Part shown: positions 5,075 through 40,557 of the stretch, in pieces
Layout: each line of letters starts with the position of its first letter
Numbering within the stretch: the first letter of the stretch is position 1
Origin: a bacterium
GTDB lineage: Bacteria; Cyanobacteriota; Vampirovibrionia; Gastranaerophilales; Gastranaerophilaceae
Direction of reading: 5' to 3'
NCBI GenBank assembly: GCA_017467605.1
Contig: JAFUSQ010000013.1
Location: 1 to 40,823 of the forward strand
Length of the DNA stretch: 40,823 nucleotides
The notes under the pieces: model-generated
What the model was told of the DNA's origin: nothing
Seen by the model: only the letters and a program-made list of their open reading frames with translations
The model's database searches: none
Program-made: the position numbers and the translations under genes

Positions 5075-5222
5075 TTTTTACTCCCTTCACCTTATATACA
5101 ACTTGATTTTAACTTGCTCAAAAATTCTCGTCAAGCAGTGTTAAGAGGGCTTTTAATTTGCCATTGAACTTTTTGAAAAAAAATGTTAAAATAGAATGTA
5201 TAAAAATAAATGAGGATTGGTT

Positions 5223-5876
5223 ATGAAAATAAAAAAGAATGGCTTTACTTTAGCGGAAGCTTTGATTACATTAACGATTGTCGGTGCTTTAGCTGTGCTT
5301 GTATTGCCCGGATTGATAAAAGATACAACAAGTAGGGCTATGATTGCATTGTTACAAAGTACTTTAAAAAACTTAGATGATGCTATTCAAAACGAATTGG
5401 TTAAAACAAGGGCTACAAATATAAAAGATACTGTTATATATAAAGACCCTGAAGCTTTCTTTAAAAATTTGGATTATGTAAAATATTCATCTGATAATAG
5501 TCAATTCAAGAAAAGTGACGGTACGGCAGTAGCATATAAATCCGTAAACGGTACTTCAATAACTCTTTCGGATATGAGCGAGTCAGTTTTATTGAAAAAC
5601 GGTGTTGTAATAGGTATAAAAAATGGTGATGAAACAAGTAACAGAAGTCATTTGTTTATCGATACAAACGGAACAAAAGAACCAAATATCGGCGGAGTAG
5701 ATTATTTTATTCTGACTTTAATGCATGAAAATAATAAATCTACCGGTGATCATCTTGGTGATATTGGCTGCGGCGGAGCTAGTACAGATACTGATATAGC
5801 TACTTGTAAATCAGCAGGAACAACATGTTTCTGTGCTTTAGAGCGTTCAGGTTTTGACCCGAAATATATGGAATAA
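5223..5876 (+). CDS. Prepilin-like protein, short leader (217 residues)
   Basis: Class III-like signal: basic leader MKIKKNG cut before F (G|FTLAEALITLTIVGALAV), giving a +1 aromatic, E at +5 and a ~20-residue hydrophobic helix. The product should be processed by prepilin peptidase and enter a type IV pilus or pseudopilus; no assembly gene is in the window. The globular domain carries the shared motifs LKNGVVIGI and IDTNGTKEPNIGGVDYF, then paired cysteines (GCGG, TCKSAGTTCFC). ATG 5223 follows GAGGATTG; TTG 5217 also fits. It is 22 nt before the next pilin, probably one mRNA. No XRE partner. Confidence 0.88.
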   Translation: MKIKKNGFTLAEALITLTIVGALAVLVLPGLIKDTTSRAMIALLQSTLKNLDDAIQNELVKTRATNIKDTVIYKDPEAFFKNLDYVKYSSDNSQFKKSDGTAVAYKSVNGTSITLSDMSESVLLKNGVVIGIKNGDETSNRSHLFIDTNGTKEPNIGGVDYFILTLMHENNKSTGDHLGDIGCGGASTDTDIATCKSAGTTCFCALERSGFDPKYME

Positions 5877-5898
5877 TTAATAAAAGTTAGGAGTTTAA

Positions 5899-6657
5899 AT
5901 GAAATCTAATAAAAAAGCTTTTACATTGATAGAATTATTAATAGCGTTATCTGTAGTTGGAGTTTTGGCGGTTATGTCTATTCCGAGTCTTTCTGCTGAT
6001 ATTAACAAAAAACTTCTGACTAATCAGATAAAAAATACATATATTTCAATACAACAACTTGTCGGTGATCAGCTTACAGATATGAGTAATAAGACTACAA
6101 TATTATCAAATACAGATTTTTCAAGTCCTGCAGCTTTATTAAACGATTTAGAAACAGTAGATGATTGTTCTACCGTTGCCGATTGCTGGCCGGAAAATTC
6201 TGAGGATAAACCTGCATACAGAACTCTGAATAAGTTGGAAAATAAAGTAAATGCTCCGACTGCTGCAACAAGAATTCTGAAAAATGGTGTTGCTATATCT
6301 TATGAACTTATTGATCCGGGTATTACGACATCAAAAGATATTTGTTACGGATTATTTTGGGTAGACGTAAATGCAAAAGATAAACCGAATATTATAGGTC
6401 GTGATATGTTTGCATTTTATGTAACAAAATATGGAAAATTAGTAGACGATTTGCAGTGTAAAACCTTACTAAATGAAGCAAAAGTTGCTGCAGGTGAAGA
6501 TCCTGAAGAAGAAAGTTCAGATGATGATGAAGAAAACCCTGCAACAATTGAAGAAAAATGGGAAAAAGCTTGTAAAGAGGTTACAAATGATGCCCCTGAA
6601 AAAGCAACCGAATGCATAACACATATTCAAACAAACGGTTGGAAGATGTTGTTTTAG
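5899..6657 (+). CDS. Prepilin-like protein, short leader (252 residues)
   Basis: Leader MKSNKKA precedes FTLIELLIALSVVGVLAVMSIP, a canonical prepilin helix with E+5 but Ala rather than Gly at -1. Good Shine-Dalgarno AGGAG. The globular part has four or more cysteines (DDCSTVADCW), LKNGVAISYEL and the shared loop VDVNAKDKPNIIGRDMF. Near residues 197-215 there is an acidic run (GEDPEEESSDDDEENPATIEE) not seen in the other pilins here. It ends HIQTNGWKMLF, similar to the GW ending of other members. Co-directional with, and 22 nt after, the pilin at 5223. Confidence 0.88.
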   Translation: MKSNKKAFTLIELLIALSVVGVLAVMSIPSLSADINKKLLTNQIKNTYISIQQLVGDQLTDMSNKTTILSNTDFSSPAALLNDLETVDDCSTVADCWPENSEDKPAYRTLNKLENKVNAPTAATRILKNGVAISYELIDPGITTSKDICYGLFWVDVNAKDKPNIIGRDMFAFYVTKYGKLVDDLQCKTLLNEAKVAAGEDPEEESSDDDEENPATIEEKWEKACKEVTNDAPEKATECITHIQTNGWKMLF

Positions 6658-8003: not shown

Positions 8004-8103
8004 ATTCTGCGTATATTTGCGGGATTTGTTATGTGGATTATTAGCTATTGAGTTAGTATTTAATATGTGTTATAATTCTATATATAAAAGAGGAAGTTTA
8101 TAT

Positions 8104-8748
8104 ATGAGGAAAATATCAGCCTTTACTTTAGCGGAAGTAATTTTAACAATGACAATTGTCGGTGTAGTTGCGGCAATGACAATTCCTACTTTGCATTACC
8201 AAAAAAATAAAAGAGAATATAGTGCAAAAATAAAAAATTTCTATAGCAGAATGGAAAATGCCATTGTTGATATGGAGATGGATAAAGGTTCATATAGAGA
8301 TATGCTTCTGCCGGCAAATGGCAATGGCTTTGATTGGTATATTGATAATGTTGATCCGTATATGGGGCATCAATATGTTGATACATCAAAGAAAAGAGTA
8401 TATTTTAAAGATGGTTCAAGCCTTTTTAAAGATGGTTCAAGCCTTCAACAGTTTTTCTCAGGCGGGTGTCTTGATGTTGTTTATGATGTAAACGGCGACA
8501 GAGCTCCAAATCGTTCAGGATTTGATCAATATAAGTTTCTATATTGTTTCACTGATGATAATAGAACTAATTGGTTTGGAAACAAGGATATTTTCTTTGG
8601 TACATATGGCAGCGGCTTAAATGCTGTTGGTACAACAAGAGCTCAGATGATTGAAAAATGTAAAGATGCAGAAACTACAAGTTGGTGTACAAAACTTTTA
8701 CAAAACGACCAGTGGGAATTCAAACACGATTATCCGCACAAATTTTAG
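8104..8748 (+). CDS. Prepilin-like protein, short leader (214 residues)
   Basis: Starts at ATG 8104 behind AGAGGAAG; an upstream in-frame start at 8017 adds 29 residues that look non-coding. Leader MRKISA, then FTLAEVILTMTIVGVVAAMTIP. The globular domain contains a perfect 21-bp tandem duplication at 8404-8445 giving FKDGSSLFKDGSSL, exactly at the DG motif conserved among these pilins. The loop VYDVNGDRAPNRSGFDQY is the local version of the family motif. Cysteines near the end (KCKDAETTSWCTK) and the terminus QWEFKHDYPHKF resemble the KDYPW ending of other members. No XRE partner. Confidence 0.88.
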   Translation: MRKISAFTLAEVILTMTIVGVVAAMTIPTLHYQKNKREYSAKIKNFYSRMENAIVDMEMDKGSYRDMLLPANGNGFDWYIDNVDPYMGHQYVDTSKKRVYFKDGSSLFKDGSSLQQFFSGGCLDVVYDVNGDRAPNRSGFDQYKFLYCFTDDNRTNWFGNKDIFFGTYGSGLNAVGTTRAQMIEKCKDAETTSWCTKLLQNDQWEFKHDYPHKF

Positions 8749-12467: not shown

Positions 12468-13469
12468 TTATTTTATCAATTGAAGCATTTGATTCCCGGA
12501 TTTTCCGCCTTTTTCAATCATACTACAACCACCACTTTCGCTTGTAAGATATACCTGGTTAAATTCTGATGTTTTTACATAAATTACAAATGCATCATAA
12601 CCAAATTTATTTGGTCCGTTTTTGCCGTTTATGTCTAAAATAAAAAGTGGTTGCCCAAAAGCATATGTTATTATTGTTATACCATCTAATAATACGTATG
12701 CTGAGCTCACATTCAAAATATTGTTTTTTGAAAACCCACTGCAACCACTATTATACTCATAAGAATTATACATTGGTATGCAGCCTTTCTCGTATGCATT
12801 GCCGTTACATATTTGTGTTACTTTTGTATAATTTGGTAAAAGCGAAGTAAAACTTTTACACCCTTGCCCAACTGAACCGTATGCACAAATATCTTCACCG
12901 TCCATTTTGCGCAAAGCATTGTTTAATACAGAATATGCTTTTTTGAATTGAGTAATTCTTATTCTGTCTTGAATTTTTGTAGTGATTGTCGTTATAGTCA
13001 TTGCCGCAACGACTCCGATTACGCCTATAGTAATAAGTATCTCCGCAAGCGTAAACCCCGCGGAGCGCAGTATTCGTGGAGTCTTGCCAAAGTTTGTAGC
13101 AGAATACCCACTCCGGCGAGGAGAAAAGGCAACCTTCTTTTCCCCTCGCCATGCGGGAGAGGGGGTAGGGGAGAGGGGGCAATGCGTGAGTTGTGAATCA
13201 TGAATAAGTCCGTTACGGTTATTAATCCTCCTGTCATTGCGAGGAGGACGTAAGTCGGACGAAGCAATCCAGTCGTTTCTGTACGAATTTTTCTGGATTG
13301 CCACGCACTCACCGTCGTTCGTGCTCGCTATGACGTTACTCTGACTGTGATAAAGGGTAAATGTATGGACTTTTAAATTTGTTTTATTTACCCCCGTCGT
13401 AATCCCGTTCCTATCACATTTACTCCAAATTTCAGATTTCTTATTAATGGTTCTTAAAACTAAATTCAT
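12468..13469 (-). CDS. Prepilin-like protein with 138-residue repeat-built leader (module 2)
   Basis: The prepilin core begins at residue 139: RSAG|FTLAEILITIGVIGVVAAMTI. Before it the frame stays open through a mosaic of genome repeats from ATG 13469, which has a strong Shine-Dalgarno (AGGAGG). The leader includes CATTGCGAGG-type repeat (13235-13340), a GAGAGGGGGTAGGGG repeat (13143-13181) and the ~66-bp element 13056-13121 at the cleavage site. The core has DGITIITYAF, LDINGKNGPNKFGYDAF and six or more cysteines (CAYGSVGQGCK, CNGNAYEKGC, GGCS). Divergent from the XRE gene at 13537 with a palindromic operator between. A shorter start cannot be excluded, but no ATG with a ribosome site lies just before the core. 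Confidence 0.82.
   Translation of the reverse strand: MNLVLRTINKKSEIWSKCDRNGITTGVNKTNLKVHTFTLYHSQSNVIASTNDGECVAIQKNSYRNDWIASSDLRPPRNDRRINNRNGLIHDSQLTHCPLSPTPSPAWRGEKKVAFSPRRSGYSATNFGKTPRILRSAGFTLAEILITIGVIGVVAAMTITTITTKIQDRIRITQFKKAYSVLNNALRKMDGEDICAYGSVGQGCKSFTSLLPNYTKVTQICNGNAYEKGCIPMYNSYEYNSGCSGFSKNNILNVSSAYVLLDGITIITYAFGQPLFILDINGKNGPNKFGYDAFVIYVKTSEFNQVYLTSESGGCSMIEKGGKSGNQMLQLIK
13056..13121 (-). repeat. Cleavage-site element, copy 1
   Basis: About 66 bp, minus strand from CCTCGCCGG to CTGCGCTCCGCGGGG, translated as PRRSGYSATNFGKTP then RILRSAG. It ends exactly where the prepilin helix (F+1) begins and supplies Gly -1. Copy 2 is at 27588-27652, and a decayed copy is near 10-45. Confidence 0.85.
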
Positions 13470-21368: not shown

Positions 21369-22208
21369 TTACCATGGATAATCTTTTGCAATTGTCCACC
21401 CGTCATTAATAATTTTTTGGGCGCAGCACAAACCTTGCCCTGTTTTTGAGCAGTCAGCATTTACTGTCGAAAGATTGCTGGAATTACATCTTGGGATAAT
21501 AATACCTCTTTCATTTCTCTCGAATGTAAAAACATCTTTGCCAATAGTATTAGGCAGCTCCGCGCCATTTATATCAATATATAACCAAGTTTTAGCAGAA
21601 GAACCGTATTTAACAAAATTTATTAATACAGTGCCATCAGGTAATAATATACTGCTTCTTCCGGAGTTAATCGCATCAACTCCGACTATATCCCCATTTA
21701 AAGCTTTAAAAGAACCGGTAGCACCGCTTCCATTAAATAAGCTATATTTACAAACATTATAATTTTTGCACAAAGTTATTCCCTTGAAATACGGAAGCCA
21801 ATATTTTTTAAAATATTCATCTTCACCGACTTCTTCGGGGTTATCCCAACCGTCATAATCACCGTTATCGGCTACAGATAAAAGCAATGCTTGATTAACT
21901 TGAGAGTAAGCTTTTTTCAATTTTGTAACGGTTTTTTGTTGTTGATAGTGAGTAATAATATTTGGTATAGTCATTGCACTGACTATACCGATTATGCCAA
22001 GTGTTATGAGGGTTTCTGCAAGAGTGAAGGCTAAGTGTTGCCCCCTCACCATTGCCCTCTGCGATTCGCTGACGCTTACTGCACGCAGTCTCGCTCGACT
22101 CGCAAACTCGTCGGCTCGGCTAGTGTCCCGTAGATATTTCCCCCCTACATTTACCCTGTCACTCTGAACTTGTTTCAGGGTCTGTTTAATTTTCCATTTA
22201 ATATTCAT
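21369..22208 (-). CDS. Prepilin-like protein with 60-residue repeat-built leader (module 3)
   Basis: Core HLA|FTLAETLITLGIIGIVSAMTIPN begins at residue 61. The leader from ATG 22208 (Shine-Dalgarno AGAGGT) contains QTLKQVQSD, which is the 26-bp repeat at 22158-22183 translated, then KYLRDTSRADEFASRARLRAVS, another repeat in frame. Core motifs: LLPDGTVLINF, IDINGAELPNTIGKDVF, C-terminal cysteines (CSKTGQGLCC) and the tail DGWTIAKDYPW that also survives as a remnant at 612-659. Divergent from XRE 22298; a TTGATT-17-TATAAT promoter lies 38-66 bp before the ATG. Confidence 0.84.
   Translation of the reverse strand: MNIKWKIKQTLKQVQSDRVNVGGKYLRDTSRADEFASRARLRAVSVSESQRAMVRGQHLAFTLAETLITLGIIGIVSAMTIPNIITHYQQQKTVTKLKKAYSQVNQALLLSVADNGDYDGWDNPEEVGEDEYFKKYWLPYFKGITLCKNYNVCKYSLFNGSGATGSFKALNGDIVGVDAINSGRSSILLPDGTVLINFVKYGSSAKTWLYIDINGAELPNTIGKDVFTFERNERGIIIPRCNSSNLSTVNADCSKTGQGLCCAQKIINDGWTIAKDYPW
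22158..22183. repeat. 26-bp dispersed repeat inside a pilin leader
   Basis: GTCACTCTGAAC-TTGTTTCAGGGTCT, one base off the consensus, translated on the minus strand as QTLKQVQSD within the pilin leader. Confidence 0.85.
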
Positions 22209-26509: not shown

Positions 26510-28225
26510 TTACTTAATTGTACCTGTGCAAGTTCCATAAGATGGTGTTGGGCTATATTCAATACCGGTAATACGATCTTTAACTTCACATTTTAGTATA
26601 TTGTTCAAACATTCACTATCAGGTAATCTGTTATATAATTTATGTAAATCTGATGCAGAATAATAACTAATATCTACCCATTTTTCGCTTGTATTAGGAC
26701 TACACGCTTTTCCGTCATTAGTAAGGCTGGGACTATAATTGATATATACTTTTACACTATATTGGTTGATAGTATCTCCAGTGACCACAAAAGAAAAATA
26801 ACCTCCTGATCGGCTTCCATTAGCCAAGTATTTCCCATTCTTATTTGAAGATATACCCCAACTAATGTGGCAAAAAGAGCTTGTTCGATTAAGATTACCT
26901 AATTCGCAGCACCAAGATTTATTATCATCATTAACTCCTTGTTCTTGGCAACATTCAAGACTTTTGGGATTGATATCACAAGGACCCTGCGTATCTGGTT
27001 CCTCAGGCTCAGAATTTGAACGTTCATACGGCTCGGTGATTACGTCTTGAGTAGCTTTGCTTAAAATAGTTTTTGTTTTTGAGTTTAATGTAAATGTTCT
27101 CAAGTCTTGTCCTAAAACATTCGGTCCTTTTTTACCGTTGATATCTATTAAAACTTGTGGAGAATTCGCAGATATTTGAGGTGTCAAACAAATACTTGAA
27201 CCGTTTTTTAAACTCCCGCAAGCTCCTTTGAATTCAGGATTATAAACTTTCTTGTCTTTGTCTTTGTATTCATAATAAACATTTGCAAAACAATCCCTGT
27301 TACTATTCCCGCAATATTTAGAAAGTTTCAGATATTTTTTTATAAATTGTCCTGAATTATCTAAATAACTTTCGGGTTCTTCTGAAACATACATCATTGT
27401 ACTGAAATATGAACCTTTATTTTCAGTAACAATTAAATTATCTAAAGCATTATTTAATGTCTTTGTCATTCTTTCAAACCCTAAATCAAAAGATTTCTGT
27501 CTGTATTTAGAGACAAACACAGGTAAAACAAGTGCTGATATTACTCCAACTATTACACAGGCTAATAGGACTTCGGTTAAAGTAAATCCCGCGGAGCGCA
27601 GGAGTCGTGGAGTCTTTCCAAAGATTGTAGCATTATGCCCCGTCCGGCGAGGACCTTCGGTGAGGGTGAAGGCTATCTTTTTAAAGTGAATAGGTAGATA
27701 AGTTGATAAGTTGATAAGTTCGTTACGGTTATTAAGCCTCCCATCATTGCGAGGAGGATTGTCATTCTGAGGGCGAAGCCCGAAGAATCGCAATACCTTA
27801 CAAGATTTGCTTGACATTGAGATCTTTCGCCCTGCGGGCTCAAGATGACGATAACCGTCATTGCGAGGAGCAAAGCGACGAAGCAATCCAGACTGCCCCC
27901 TCTCCTGTCCTTCGGACACCCTCTCCCGTTGGGCGAGGGAATTACATTTACCCCTGTCACCCTGAACTTGATTCAGGGTCTTATTCAGAATCTTAAAATT
28001 TTTGTGTGAGCCTGTTTCCGTCGGCGCAGCCGTTAGGTGTTTCAGGGTCTTTTCCCTAACGGGTGAAACCCCACCCGAATTTCTAACACTCATAAACTCG
28101 TGTTGAAATTCTTCCCTCCCCTTGTCAGGGGAGGATAAGAGGGGTCTTAATAATTTACCCCTATATTTACCCCTGTGTTTTAGTACCGTTTTTATTTTTT
28201 TTATATTCAACAAATTCTTCTCCAT
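26510..28225 (-). CDS. Prepilin-like protein with 213-residue repeat-built leader (module 4)
   Basis: 571 residues from ATG 28225; the open frame reaches TTG 28282, but that lies in the -35 of a promoter. The leader is a mosaic of translated repeats: [46 protein letters not shown]. It holds a first prepilin-like motif KKIAFTLTEG (183-191), then the ~66-bp element, then the true core RSAG|FTLTEVLLACVIVGVISALVLP (214 on). The core has KNGSSICLTP and IDINGKKGPNVLGQD. A ~180-residue Cys-rich C-terminal extension (PKSLECCQEQG.., FSFVVTGDTINQYSVKVYINY) is unique among the pilins here. No Shine-Dalgarno. Divergent from XRE 28341. Confidence 0.78.
   Translation of the reverse strand: MEKNLLNIKKIKTVLKHRGKYRGKLLRPLLSSPDKGREEFQHEFMSVRNSGGVSPVREKTLKHLTAAPTETGSHKNFKILNKTLNQVQGDRGKCNSLAQRERVSEGQERGQSGLLRRFAPRNDGYRHLEPAGRKISMSSKSCKVLRFFGLRPQNDNPPRNDGRLNNRNELINLSTYLPIHFKKIAFTLTEGPRRTGHNATIFGKTPRLLRSAGFTLTEVLLACVIVGVISALVLPVFVSKYRQKSFDLGFERMTKTLNNALDNLIVTENKGSYFSTMMYVSEEPESYLDNSGQFIKKYLKLSKYCGNSNRDCFANVYYEYKDKDKKVYNPEFKGACGSLKNGSSICLTPQISANSPQVLIDINGKKGPNVLGQDLRTFTLNSKTKTILSKATQDVITEPYERSNSEPEEPDTQGPCDINPKSLECCQEQGVNDDNKSWCCELGNLNRTSSFCHISWGISSNKNGKYLANGSRSGGYFSFVVTGDTINQYSVKVYINYSPSLTNDGKACSPNTSEKWVDISYYSASDLHKLYNRLPDSECLNNILKCEVKDRITGIEYSPTPSYGTCTGTIK
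27588..27652 (-). repeat. Cleavage-site element, copy 2
   Basis: Minus strand CCTCGCCGGACGG..CTGCGCTCCGCGGG, translated PRRTGHNATIFGKTP then RLLRSAG. It differs from copy 1 (13056-13121) at about a dozen positions but keeps frame. Flanked by GCCTTCACCCTCACCGAAGG on one side and TTTACTTTAACCGAAG on the other: both encode FTLTE. Confidence 0.85.
27690..28190. repeat. Mosaic of dispersed repeats forming a pilin leader
   Basis: In + orientation: CATTGCGAGGAGGATTGTCATTCTGAGGGCGAAGCCCGAAGAATC (27746-27790, two units), CATTGCGAGGAGCAAAGCGACGAAGCAATCC (27858-27889), a CCCTCTCCTGTCC..CTCTCCCGTTGGGCGAGG unit (27897-27938), the 26-bp repeat (27956-27981) and a CCCCTTGTCAGGGGAGGATAAGAGGGG unit (28120-28146). 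All lie inside the open frame of the pilin on the minus strand. Confidence 0.85.
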
Positions 28226-28252
28226 AATCCAATTTAAATAATCCACATGAAT

Positions 28253-28280
28253 TCTATATAATATAATGAATTTTGTCAAC
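28253..28280 (-). promoter_or_regulatory. Pilin promoter, module 4
   Basis: Minus strand TTGACA (28280-28275), 16-bp spacer, TATAGA (28258-28253). It sits 28 bp before ATG 28225, which is why the TTG at 28282 is not taken as the start. TTGTCAACAA (28274-28283) is a short palindrome and AACAAT/ATTGTT pair at 28279-28284 and 28317-28322; these are weak operator candidates. Confidence 0.55.
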
Positions 28281-28340
28281 AATTTTCGCTATAATAGTTA
28301 GTAAAGTTTCTCTCAGATTGTTAATAAACTAAAATATATT

Positions 28341-33731: not shown

Positions 33732-34400
33732 ATGTCTGAATACTTGAGCAAAGAAGAGATAAAACAATGGAGAAGCTCATTAGAAAAGATTACATTAGAG
33801 GAATTCGCTGCAAGATTAGGGAAAAAAGTTGAAGAAAAAAAAGAAACTAATGATTTGGTGGATATTGTTCTTCATGGTAAACCGGTTGTATCAGAAGATT
33901 CTAATTGGTCATCTTCAAAGGTTGAACGTCTCAGCTCAATAGCAGAAAGAGCATATGAAAAAGAAAAAGAACTTTACGTATCTCCGTTCTCTGCACAAAA
34001 TTTAAAAGTAGAAGATTCTAAATCCGCTTCACCAAAAGAAGTTAAAAAGTCAGCAGCTTCTTCAAAATCTGCTAAAAAACCTTCTGAATCAAATAAAGTT
34101 TCTAAAAAGTCAGAAAAAACTTTTGAAACTGCTAAAAAGATTATTTCTAATACAAAAACAGGTGATGATTTAAGAGATGAAGTGAGGATTGTATTTAAAA
34201 AAGCACTCACTGACAGAGAACAAAAAGTGTTCGATTATTTTGCCGCACATAGGAATAAAATTGTTTATGCTAAAGATTTGGCAGAATTGTTGGAGCTTCC
34301 GAGAGATTATGTTTACAAATATATTAAGAATTTAAGAGCAAAAATTGATGGTGAGGCATTGAAAAATGCAGATAAAGGTGGCTTTGTTCTTACTGTATAG
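33732..34400 (+). CDS. Protein with C-terminal winged-helix-like domain
   Basis: 222 residues. N-terminal ~60 residues are charged and helical (KEEIKQWRSSLEKITLEEFAARLGKK). Residues ~85-140 are a low-complexity Lys/Ser linker (SPKEVKKSAASSKSAKKPSES). The last ~65 residues (LTDREQKVFDYFAAHRNKIV, KDLAELLELPRDYVYKYIKNLRAKI, DKGGFVLTV) have the pattern of a winged helix ending in a beta hairpin, as in OmpR-type output domains. A DNA-binding regulator is the best guess. AAGGAG precedes ATG 33732. A strong terminator follows. Confidence 0.65.
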   Translation: MSEYLSKEEIKQWRSSLEKITLEEFAARLGKKVEEKKETNDLVDIVLHGKPVVSEDSNWSSSKVERLSSIAERAYEKEKELYVSPFSAQNLKVEDSKSASPKEVKKSAASSKSAKKPSESNKVSKKSEKTFETAKKIISNTKTGDDLRDEVRIVFKKALTDREQKVFDYFAAHRNKIVYAKDLAELLELPRDYVYKYIKNLRAKIDGEALKNADKGGFVLTV

Positions 34401-34413
34401 AAATAGATATAAT

Positions 34414-34451
34414 AAAAAAGACCTTAAAGAATATCTTTAAGGTCTTTTTTT
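34414..34451. terminator. Bidirectional terminator
   Basis: AAAAAAGACCTTAAAG, loop AATAT, CTTTAAGGTCTTTTTTT. Ends the winged-helix gene (+) and can end the minus-strand gene stopping at 34468. Confidence 0.9.
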
Positions 34452-34467
34452 ATTATATTTTGATATT

Positions 34468-34854
34468 TTATCTAATTTCGCATTTTGCACCGACAAATTC
34501 TAAAGCACGTTTGTTTAGAATAGCTTCTCTTTCAGAAATATTCATTATTACAGTAGTTGGAGCAGATGATACTATATCTTTAGCTGCTGCGTAATCCAGA
34601 CCGGTGATTTGTCTTAATGTAGCCATAACTGTCGCTTGATTATCCCCTGAACTCAACAAAACCAATTTTCTTCTTCCTGTTGATTTTTTTATTGCGTGTC
34701 TGTTTTTGTTAAGTCCAACTTCGGTATAGATCATTTTTTGAACTTTTGCAAATTCAACATTGTCCATATCAAAATGATATTTTCTTTTAACGTAATCACT
34801 TATGATAACTATTAACATCACTGTAATTGCAGCAAATAAAAATAACGGATCCAT
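34468..34854 (-). CDS. Membrane-anchored protein with L7/L12 C-terminal-like domain
   Basis: 128 residues. Residues 3-20 are a membrane anchor (PLFLFAAITVMLIVIISD). After a basic linker (HAIKKSTGRRK), residues ~64-128 follow the L7/L12 C-terminal domain: RQITGLDYAAAKDIVSSAPT here against [20 protein letters not shown] in rplL, and both end GAxxEI(K/R). It lies 122 bp after rplL on the same strand but behind the rplL terminator and with its own Shine-Dalgarno (AGAGGTG). It may have arisen by duplication and may tether a translation factor or ribosome at the membrane. Function inferred. Confidence 0.75.
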   Translation of the reverse strand: MDPLFLFAAITVMLIVIISDYVKRKYHFDMDNVEFAKVQKMIYTEVGLNKNRHAIKKSTGRRKLVLLSSGDNQATVMATLRQITGLDYAAAKDIVSSAPTTVIMNISEREAILNKRALEFVGAKCEIR

Positions 34855-34923
34855 AAATTTTGCACCTCTTTTGTATAAATGTTATCACAGAAGATTTTAC
34901 CTTGCAATAAATTCAAATATAAA

Positions 34924-34954
34924 AAAGAGGACGATTATTACAACCGTCCTCTTT
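34924..34954 (-). terminator. Terminator of rplJ-rplL
   Basis: Minus strand AAAGAGGACG, loop, CGTCCTCTTTTTT: 10-bp stem plus T run, 23 nt after the rplL stop. Confidence 0.88.
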
Positions 34955-34976
34955 CAATTTTGAATTAAAAACCAAA

Positions 34977-35354
34977 CTACTTGATTTCAACAACTGCACC
35001 AGCTGCTTCAAGAGTTTTCTTGATAGCTTCAGCTTCATCTTTTTTGATGTTTTCTTTAACTGCTTTAGGAGCTGCTTCAACTAAGTCTTTAGCTTCTTTC
35101 AAACCTAAACCTGTTAAAGTTCTAACTTCTTTTAATACAGCGATTTTCTTATCAGCCGGAACTGATGCTAATACAACTGAAACTTCAGCATCAGCATCAT
35201 CTGCTGCTGCGCCTGCTGCTGCCGGAGCTGCTGCTGCAACTGCTACAGGAGCAGCTGCTGATACGCCGAATTTTTCTTCCATAGCTTTTACTAATTCAGC
35301 TGCTTCTAATAATGTTAATTTTTCAATTGATTCTAAAATTGATTCTACACTCAT
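34977..35354 (-). CDS. rplL: 50S ribosomal protein L7/L12
   Basis: Stalk protein that recruits translation GTPases. 125 residues: N-terminal dimerisation/L10-binding helix region ([23 protein letters not shown]), an Ala-rich hinge ([18 protein letters not shown]) and the CTD ([22 protein letters not shown]..). AAGGAG precedes the ATG. Downstream of rplJ in the usual order. Confidence 0.98.
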
Positions 35355-35439: not shown

Positions 35440-35961
35440 CTAAGCGGCTTTTTGATCTCTAACAGCTGCCATAGCTCTTGTAAGTTGAGCCATAACTGCA
35501 TTGATAGAACCAACAATGCCTGATGCCGGTGAATTGATAGATCCAAGCATTTTTGCATAAAGTTCTGATTTTGAAGGCAGATTTGCCAATGCTTTTGTAT
35601 CTTCTGCTGAAAGTAAGTTTCCATCTAATACTGCACCGATGATTTCACCTTTTTTAGTATCTTTGATAAACTTAGCTACTGCTTTTGCAGGGCTTACAGG
35701 ATCTTCAAAACCGAAAGCCAAAGCGATAGGTCCGGTTAATTTTTCAGTCAAAGCTTCGTATTGAGTACCTTTAACAGCGATTTTAGCCAAAGTGTTTTTA
35801 GTAACCATATAGTCACCGCCGCCTTTTTGGATTTCGCGTCTTAGTTTTGTAATTTCTTCAACAGACAAACCTTTGTATTCTGTCAAAATTGCGACCTGAG
35901 CTTTTTCGATTTTTGCTTTAATAGCATCTATTTTTTCTGATTTAAATGCTTTTGTTGCCAT
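35440..35961 (-). CDS. rplJ: 50S ribosomal protein L10
   Basis: Stalk base protein that carries L7/L12 dimers. 173 residues: KIEKAQVAILTEYKGLSVEEITKLRREI, then MVTKNTLAKIAVKGT, GPIALAFGFEDPVSPAKAV and a C-terminal helix for L12 (PASGIVGSINAVMAQLTRAM). Shine-Dalgarno AAAAGGAGC. A structured leader lies upstream. rplK/rplA are not adjacent, since the next gene upstream is on the + strand. Confidence 0.98.
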   Translation of the reverse strand: MATKAFKSEKIDAIKAKIEKAQVAILTEYKGLSVEEITKLRREIQKGGGDYMVTKNTLAKIAVKGTQYEALTEKLTGPIALAFGFEDPVSPAKAVAKFIKDTKKGEIIGAVLDGNLLSAEDTKALANLPSKSELYAKMLGSINSPASGIVGSINAVMAQLTRAMAAVRDQKAA

Positions 35962-39648: not shown

Positions 39649-40557
39649 ATGATTAAAAGAGAATTAAAAAACAACATTCAAGCTATCCGCAAAGGTATAA
39701 TTAACTGTCATTCTGAACTTGTTTCAGAATCTTTTAAAAATCAGACCCTGAAACAAGTTCAGGGTGACAAAAATAAAAAAGCTGCATTCACATTGGCGGA
39801 AGTGCTTATCACATTGGGTATTATCGGAGTAGTTGCAGCCATGACAATACCGACACTTATGGCAAATATCAAAGGCAAACAGTATGCAACAGGATTTAAG
39901 AAAGAACTTTCAACCCTAAACCAAATGGTTAGAATGAATAAAGCTCAGTACGATTGGGATTTTGCTACGGCATTAGGTACACCTGTAGCTCATGGACATG
40001 GAAGTGACTGCAATGCAAACTCAAATCCTGAAAGCGATAACTCTATTTGTGCAATATTTAATGCTAATCTGAAAGGAATTACATTTAATCCATATTATTG
40101 GATTTGGCCTGGCAATAAAGGAACAAAATTAGGTATTGATGAAGATAATCCGGTAGGTGACATTGGCTATTATATAAAAGTTCATGAAGCTGATCCGTGG
40201 TCTTCTCCATTGACAGACCTTTCAGCGAGATATTTATTGTCAGATGGCAGTATAATATTGCTTCCAGCTTTCATGGGAGAACCATATTGTCATTTAACAG
40301 AAGGTAAGACATTAAGAGATGAATTGCTTAATGAAAATAATTTCTACTATGTGTGCACCGGATACATTGATGTAAATGGCGGAGATTTGCCAAATGAAGA
40401 AGTAACCTGTTCGACAGGAACAACGTCATACGATTTGAATGAACCTTGTATTGTTAAAAATAGTCATGTCAAAGATGTTTTCCCTGTTGTATTCTATGAC
40501 AGTACTGTTGCCCCTGCAACAAACGCCGCACAGTATGTTTTGAATAATACGAAATAA
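39649..40557 (+). CDS. Prepilin-like protein with 46-residue repeat-built leader (module 5)
   Basis: 302 residues. ATG 39649 follows AAGGAAG. The leader contains CHSELVSESF and QTLKQVQGD, two oppositely oriented copies of the 26-bp repeat (39707-39732, 39743-39768) translated in frame. The core is KKAA|FTLAEVLITLGIIGVVAAMTIPTL from residue 47. Later: LLSDGSIILLP and IDVNGGDLPNE, then a Cys-containing end (VTCSTGTTSYDLNEPC). It lacks the usual GxDxF after the loop and the KDYPW-type tail. Driven by a consensus promoter with embedded operator. Confidence 0.88.
   Translation: MIKRELKNNIQAIRKGIINCHSELVSESFKNQTLKQVQGDKNKKAAFTLAEVLITLGIIGVVAAMTIPTLMANIKGKQYATGFKKELSTLNQMVRMNKAQYDWDFATALGTPVAHGHGSDCNANSNPESDNSICAIFNANLKGITFNPYYWIWPGNKGTKLGIDEDNPVGDIGYYIKVHEADPWSSPLTDLSARYLLSDGSIILLPAFMGEPYCHLTEGKTLRDELLNENNFYYVCTGYIDVNGGDLPNEEVTCSTGTTSYDLNEPCIVKNSHVKDVFPVVFYDSTVAPATNAAQYVLNNTK
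39707..39768. repeat. Inverted pair of 26-bp repeats inside a pilin leader
   Basis: 39707-39732 GTCATTCTGAAC-TTGTTTCAGAATCT and 39743-39768 AGACCCTGAAAC-AAGTTCAGGGTGAC, head to head, 10 bp apart, both translated. Confidence 0.9.

Follow-up and report, generated by a model that had tools for sequence, protein, structure and literature searches.

Why a genome that encodes a complete ribosomal protein L12 should keep, beside rplL, a second gene in which an L12-like domain is carried on a membrane helix, and what the product of such a gene might bind, are the questions raised by this locus. On the ribosome, L12 acts as the hook that catches translation factors, and the preliminary description of the window (the whole 40,823-nucleotide stretch of DNA analysed here) had suggested that a membrane-bound copy could gather translational GTPases, or SRP/FtsY-like GTPases, at the membrane. 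The second gene is referred to below as type A, and the protein encoded by ORF 34468-34854 on the minus strand as the window copy.

Gene organisation

The features of the gene and its surroundings are as follows.

34468-34854, minus strand: type A, the gene for the membrane-tethered L12-CTD paralogue, 128 amino acids plus stop, from ORF calling, a PF00542 match and relatives in the genus
34863-34869, minus strand: Shine-Dalgarno-like AGAGGTG, read from the sequence and from the start regions of relatives
34977-35354, minus strand: rplL, a canonical L12 with both domains and the parent family of type A, from ORF calling and domain search
34923-34955, minus strand: terminator-like hairpin in the gap between rplL and type A, folding energy -18.9 kcal/mol, z -6.0
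34414-34450, no strand assigned: two-way terminator-like hairpin 3' of type A, common to the convergent gene 33732-34400, from a terminator and fold scan

The nearest same-strand gene upstream of type A is rplL, itself preceded by rplJ (35440-35961), and the gene starts with ATG; the preliminary description had placed it beside rplJL with its own ribosome site, and both statements hold, with the terminator-like hairpin intervening between rplL and type A. A comparable hairpin occupies the same gap in 26 of 26 relatives that have rplL directly upstream. Because the two hairpins bracket type A, the gene looks like its own transcription unit; a promoter scan returned 7 candidates against 5.8 expected, which is chance level, and no promoter is claimed for it. 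The genome has just two PF00542 proteins, rplL and type A (E up to 0.001).

The convergent neighbour (33732-34400, plus strand) is possibly a winged-helix protein, on weak Pfam matches below the cut-off, and every one of the 59 family genomes sampled has it. A role for type A tied to this neighbour was considered and rejected, the neighbour being family-wide and unlinked to type A elsewhere. Scattered over the 40 kb contig are many separate ORFs whose start carries a prepilin-like FTLAE or FTLIE motif (5217-6657, 8017-8748, 12468-13469, 21369-22208, 26510-28282 and 39649-40557).

Domain structure and membrane anchor

Within the coding sequence three segments can be delimited.

34471-34674, minus strand: L12 C-terminal-like domain, residues 61-128, from Pfam, AlphaFold, Foldseek and VIA-align
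34603-34638, minus strand: residues 73-84, a helix matching L12 helix 4 and the stretch that is best conserved and apparently most re-specialised, from the model and column counts
34798-34848, minus strand: hydrophobic membrane helix, residues 3-19 (helix 3-26 in the model), from hydropathy, flanking charge and AlphaFold

PF00542 matches residues 64-127 of the window copy with E 3.1e-11 and a score of 43.9 bits, the cut-off being 25.9, and a Pfam search at E up to 1 returned no other family. BLASTP against the neighbouring L12 gives 41% identity (27/66, E 1e-11), and phmmer against E. coli 1ctf gives E 3.3e-07. The AlphaFold model, built on a 21-row family alignment (A1), consists of a helix at residues 3-26, a poorly defined linker and then the element order of the L12 CTD, with block pLDDT of 90-96 across residues 61-128. 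Superposition on the L12 CTD, which the preliminary description had proposed as a check, bears out its alignment: VIA-align places 1ctf at Z 14.1 with an rmsd of 0.7 Å over 68 residues and 35% identity, and Foldseek returns 1ctf as the closest solved structure (TM 0.97 by target, rmsd 0.7). A chance resemblance to L12 is ruled out by the Pfam, BLASTP and 1ctf results.

The N-terminal dimerisation and L10-binding domain of L12 (PF16320) is absent from the window copy at E up to 1, with the neighbouring L12 scoring 74.7 bits, and because this domain is absent type A is not ribosomal L12; against the whole-protein equivalog TIGR00855 the window copy scores 40.8 bits, below the cut-off of 84.4. 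By architecture it belongs to a class defined by a membrane helix, PF00542 and no PF16320, which is not a curated family. The missing domain is also what makes it improbable that type A fastens ribosomes to the membrane, for instance as part of the stalk or through L11, whose N-terminal domain is a further contact of the L12 CTD on the ribosome (PMC3677378): the linker is short, poorly modelled and not rich in Ala and Pro, and a protein lacking the part that ties L12 to L10 would presumably not be incorporated as a stalk subunit.

The best N-terminal 19-residue window of the window copy has a mean Kyte-Doolittle hydropathy of 2.52. Of 36 relatives, 35 have a corresponding mean of 1.77 or higher, and the remaining one (G011) is a broken-frame fragment. 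With that fragment skipped, Lys and Arg are in every case (35 of 35 relatives) more numerous in the 12 residues that follow the hydrophobic stretch than in the entire segment ahead of it, from which, by the positive-inside rule, we infer that the L12-like domain lies on the cytosolic side; this orientation is based on hydropathy and charge, not on a dedicated topology predictor. The two-part architecture of N-terminal anchor and L12-like domain that was first read from this ORF thus stands, and type A is, by computation, a single-pass membrane protein; it derives from an L12 gene and would offer an L12 C-terminal-like domain to the cytosol.

Distribution and selection

Matches to profile A1 place type A in 41 of the 46 genomes of its genus, which consists of gut bacteria, and in 34 of the 34 with a completeness of 90% or more and a contamination of 5% or less. 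The five genomes without a match are 66-88% complete and their own rplL is unmatched too, so that the region is probably missing from these assemblies. Type A and rplL lie on the same contig, within about 1.2 kb, in 38 of the 41 genomes, an outcome in keeping with the synteny with rplL that had been suggested for examination; in the other three, type A is near a contig end (G010, G167) or has no rplL in the 1.5 kb upstream (G086). A phylum sample of 386 genomes has type A in all 21 of its genus members, and the remaining 365 held no type A and no match better than E 1.2e-14; the phylum matches listed near that value align with the CTD part of the profile alone, as rplL does. Similarly, 170 genomes of the order from outside the genus gave no second PF00542 match above the cut-off apart from pieces of a split rplL. 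Two matches occur in seven of these genomes; contig ends that interrupt rplL account for three, and weak hits below the cut-off for the other four. A scan of genome contigs gave one relative (L033), and a relative is present in CAMHMW010000128.1, from an uncultured Candidatus Melainabacteria bacterium. One genus genome (G023) has a third PF00542 match.

A phage origin of type A was rejected, given its rplJ-rplL locus and no confirmed relative in viral contigs; the best tblastn matches among phage records cover at most 51% of the type A query, and tblastn of plasmid and phage records together recovered for the most part normal rplL genes, along with a single copy on a Streptomyces plasmid.

For 11 of 11 pairs dN is far below dS (0.009-0.24 against 0.29-2.5, the larger dS values being near saturation), and therefore type A is under purifying selection: it is a real, selected gene. 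The alternative that it is a functionless, decaying duplicate of rplL could draw on two genomes, G011, where the frame is broken, and G001, where a fragment at a contig end is all that is seen. Set against retention in all 34 high-quality genomes, the dN and dS values and 20 invariant columns across the 21 relatives of alignment A1, it is very improbable indeed, and a pseudogene is ruled out by genus-wide retention and dN far below dS. The G011 row (L025:1353-1767), in which the frame breaks in a lysine/A-rich stretch through either an assembly slippage error or a real break, covers the C-terminal part of the protein alone and was left out of the dN/dS, hairpin and flanking-charge analyses.

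The GTPase-binding face

V66, K70 and R73 of L12 matter for EF-G. In the published descriptions, the GTPase site of L12 lies on helices 4 and 5, is positively charged and binds electrostatically (PMC6753160), RF3 makes contact at the same helix 4-5 site (PMC3677378), and K65 of bL12 is critical, changes other than to R or H impairing ribosomes (PMC6110070). The texts searched contained no residue-level mutants of V66, K70 or R73 in bL12, the one found being K65 (PMC6110070).

The face was defined as eight contact sites, 65, 66, 69, 70, 73, 80, 81 and 84 in E. coli L12 numbering, and was read in 51 rplL proteins and in type A proteins from 36 of the 41 genomes (G217, G078, G211, G158 and the G001 fragment being left out). 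In rplL it reads KILKRLKK in 49 proteins and KILKKLKK in two, with a charge of +5. The commonest type A readings are KAMARYNK (10), KAMARYDK (8) and KAMARYAK (5), and the mean charge is +2.5 (range 1 to 4). A66, R73 and Q74 are present in 36 of 36, F112 in 35, K65 in 33, Y80 in 31 and K84 in 30; K70 is never kept, the site being A in 35 and S in one, and at site 81 K appears in none of the top readings and R in one. The window copy reads QAMARYAK, with Q replacing K65 and R73 and K84 kept, so that its charge is +2 and the canonical, positively charged helix 4-5 GTPase face (+5) is not found in it.

Loss of the helix 4-5 GTPase-binding surface had been named at the outset, along with a fold unlike the L12 CTD, as evidence against the proposed function, and the outcome is divided: the fold is that of L12 and R73 is kept throughout, but the canonical surface is altered at K70, I/V66 and K81, and in the window copy at K65. 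Since the published site consists of charged helices with a critical K65 and the type A face is altered, the canonical GTPase-binding mode would on that basis be weakened in type A, and most so in the window copy. The face nonetheless looks re-specialised, not lost, because conservation along the protein peaks in helix 4 and simple loss would leave a variable surface. The mean majority fraction is 0.93 in helix 4, 0.74 in the whole CTD, 0.53 in the anchor and 0.42 in the linker, and among the positions where rplL and type A are each at least 90% uniform, eight carry a different residue in the two families, five of the eight in helix 4.

The explanation tentatively placed first, at somewhat less than an even chance, is that type A is a membrane docking module whose rebuilt face binds one specific partner, likeliest a translational GTPase. 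The surface with which L12 catches GTPases would have become less charged and strictly fixed (A66, T67, A70, T71, L72, R73 and Q74, mostly with M69 and Y80). In favour of a GTPase partner speak the fold, the apparently cytosolic anchor, the conservation, the retention of R73, K65 and K84, and tethered relatives with a canonical face (below); against it speak the halved charge, the family-wide replacement of K70 and I/V66, and the Q at position 65 of the window copy.

A second explanation, also short of an even chance though a serious possibility, is that the same docking module binds a partner that is not a translational GTPase (another protein, a second tethered copy or a membrane complex) and that the fold is a reused interaction domain. 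K70 and I/V66 are invariably replaced and charge is lost, yet the face is still highly conserved, and ClpS, a peptide adaptor, has a related fold (Z 8.0-9.7). However, the old site has not been erased, R73, K65 and K84 being largely retained, and the analysis turned up no gene for a candidate partner, the convergent neighbour being family-wide and unlinked to type A in other genomes.

The partly kept face could also serve a sink or decoy, an L12 fold that holds a translation factor without the part that would bring it to the ribosome, keeping the factor off ribosomes and lowering translation. A decoy would be expected to retain the high-affinity charged face, which is weakened in type A, and fixation in 34 of 34 good genus genomes suggests a positive role; such a function is accordingly rated as a slim chance.

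Second tethered copies

Six genomes (G014, G189, G195, G015, G004 and G002, the last three being close relatives of one another) have a second gene for a membrane helix and L12 CTD between rplL and type A. It lies 0-20 nt upstream of type A in six of six, and a terminator-like hairpin separates rplL from the tethered pair. This spacing fits a working pair and so favours the non-GTPase docking module, with the second copy as partner. Two further genomes (G018, G019) have a more diverged tethered copy elsewhere in the genome; there (L082:1681-2461 and L083:295-1075) the dispersed membrane L12-CTD gene overlaps the end of a 142-amino-acid ORF with a signal-like start. The eight second copies of the genus have a mean face charge of +4.1 and R73 and K84 in eight of eight, and the upstream copies keep more of the canonical face charge than type A does. 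Together with a Streptomyces plasmid protein they make up the nine rows of the class B column set. An extra residue before K65 is present in five of the eight and in the rplL of the genus, and in none of type A.

In a tree of 82 distinct CTDs (14 identical ones dropped from 96; LG+G4, about 66 columns, key-node supports 55 to 97), type A forms one group, the second copies of the six genomes fall beside the genus's own rplL, apart from type A (support 76), and those of G018 and G019 sit on a long branch adjoining type A, a placement that may reflect long-branch attraction. Tethering has likely arisen at least twice, on a tree limited to about 66 columns. The rplL proteins of two genera, this one and g27 (34977-35354 and L089 being examples), have PADKK before helix 4, with GANK in the other family genera read, and type A may predate the PADKK change because it has GxNK. 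In one g27 genome (G131, L073:1282-1707) the sole L12 match has its C-terminal third replaced by an unrelated tail, PF00542 matching 2-46 only.

Tethered domains in other lineages

In the class of genome G223, taken to be Cyanobacteriia, 25 of 116 genomes have at least two PF00542 matches. The extra match is above the cut-off and near full length in 19 of the 25, all of which were examined, and in 16 of the 19 the protein carrying the extra copy has one or more hydrophobic windows whose mean reaches 1.6. The full canonical face is kept, on direct reading and with I or L allowed at 66 and I at 69, by the second domain of L121, by L122 and by L124. A protein of about 230 amino acids recurs among these loci (L121-L126, L128-L137); it combines a middle domain and the L12 CTD with one or two hydrophobic segments at the N-terminus. 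In addition, L134 is an SPFH/Band 7 protein with an L12 CTD at its end. The Streptomyces plasmid protein WP_331760349.1, annotated as rplL, has a PF00542 domain and, by eye, a hydrophobic N-terminal stretch. The tethered L12-CTD architecture is thus a recurrent one. A search of the open-access literature for membrane L12 paralogues found no paper on such proteins.

A possible membrane docking site for a translation factor

Returning to the docking module with a GTPase partner, the genome encodes EF-Tu, EF-G, LepA, TypA and IF2, all above curated cut-offs. These five would be the natural candidates, none being singled out, and type A may hold or gather one of them near the membrane. GTPase gathering as first proposed is only partly supported; the SRP/FtsY-like GTPases that were offered as other partners found no support in the analysis. 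A bolder and rather doubtful extension is a membrane-resident 'second stalk', built in this genus and independently in several cyanobacteria, in which the tethered head catches a particular translational GTPase (LepA and TypA being the boldest guesses) and tunes translation at the membrane, with heads of canonical and rebuilt face paired in some species. If a re-specialised, tethered L12 copy fixed in a genus does act in this way, the recruitment of factors can be moved from the ribosome to the membrane. The recurrence of the architecture among cyanobacteria points to a class of L12-head proteins that is general and has gone unexamined.

Comparison with known systems

The phage-encoded bL12-domain proteins (PMC6375957) resemble type A in placing an L12 CTD in a new protein context. 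They are viral, and the available part of that source reports no membrane anchor (the word 'transmembrane' does not occur in it), whereas type A is chromosomal and lies beside rplL. With the ClpS protease adaptor type A shares a fold class, but identity is only 10-17% and Z is below that of L12; membership of ClpS was rejected on that lower Z and on a Pfam search at E up to 1 that returned no ClpS family match.

Closer in architecture are the tethered proteins of Cyanobacteriia and the Streptomyces plasmid, which have in common with type A one or more N-terminal hydrophobic segments and PF00542 at or near the C-terminus. Most of the cyanobacterial proteins are longer (162-783 amino acids), frequently carrying a middle domain or an SPFH domain along with one to three hydrophobic segments; they do not adjoin rplL as far as read, and several have the canonical face, unlike type A.

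The closest system is bL12 itself (L7/L12; PF00542 plus PF16320, TIGR00855), which shares with type A the fold and sequence of the CTD, R73, most of K65 and K84, and the gene neighbourhood. Type A differs in the membrane helix that replaces the N-terminal dimerisation and L10-binding domain, in its rebuilt GTPase face and in a TIGR00855 score below the cut-off. It is not bL12 by membership, yet it plausibly works like the head of L12, and the reshaped face hints at an undescribed membrane docking site for a factor of protein synthesis or for another partner.
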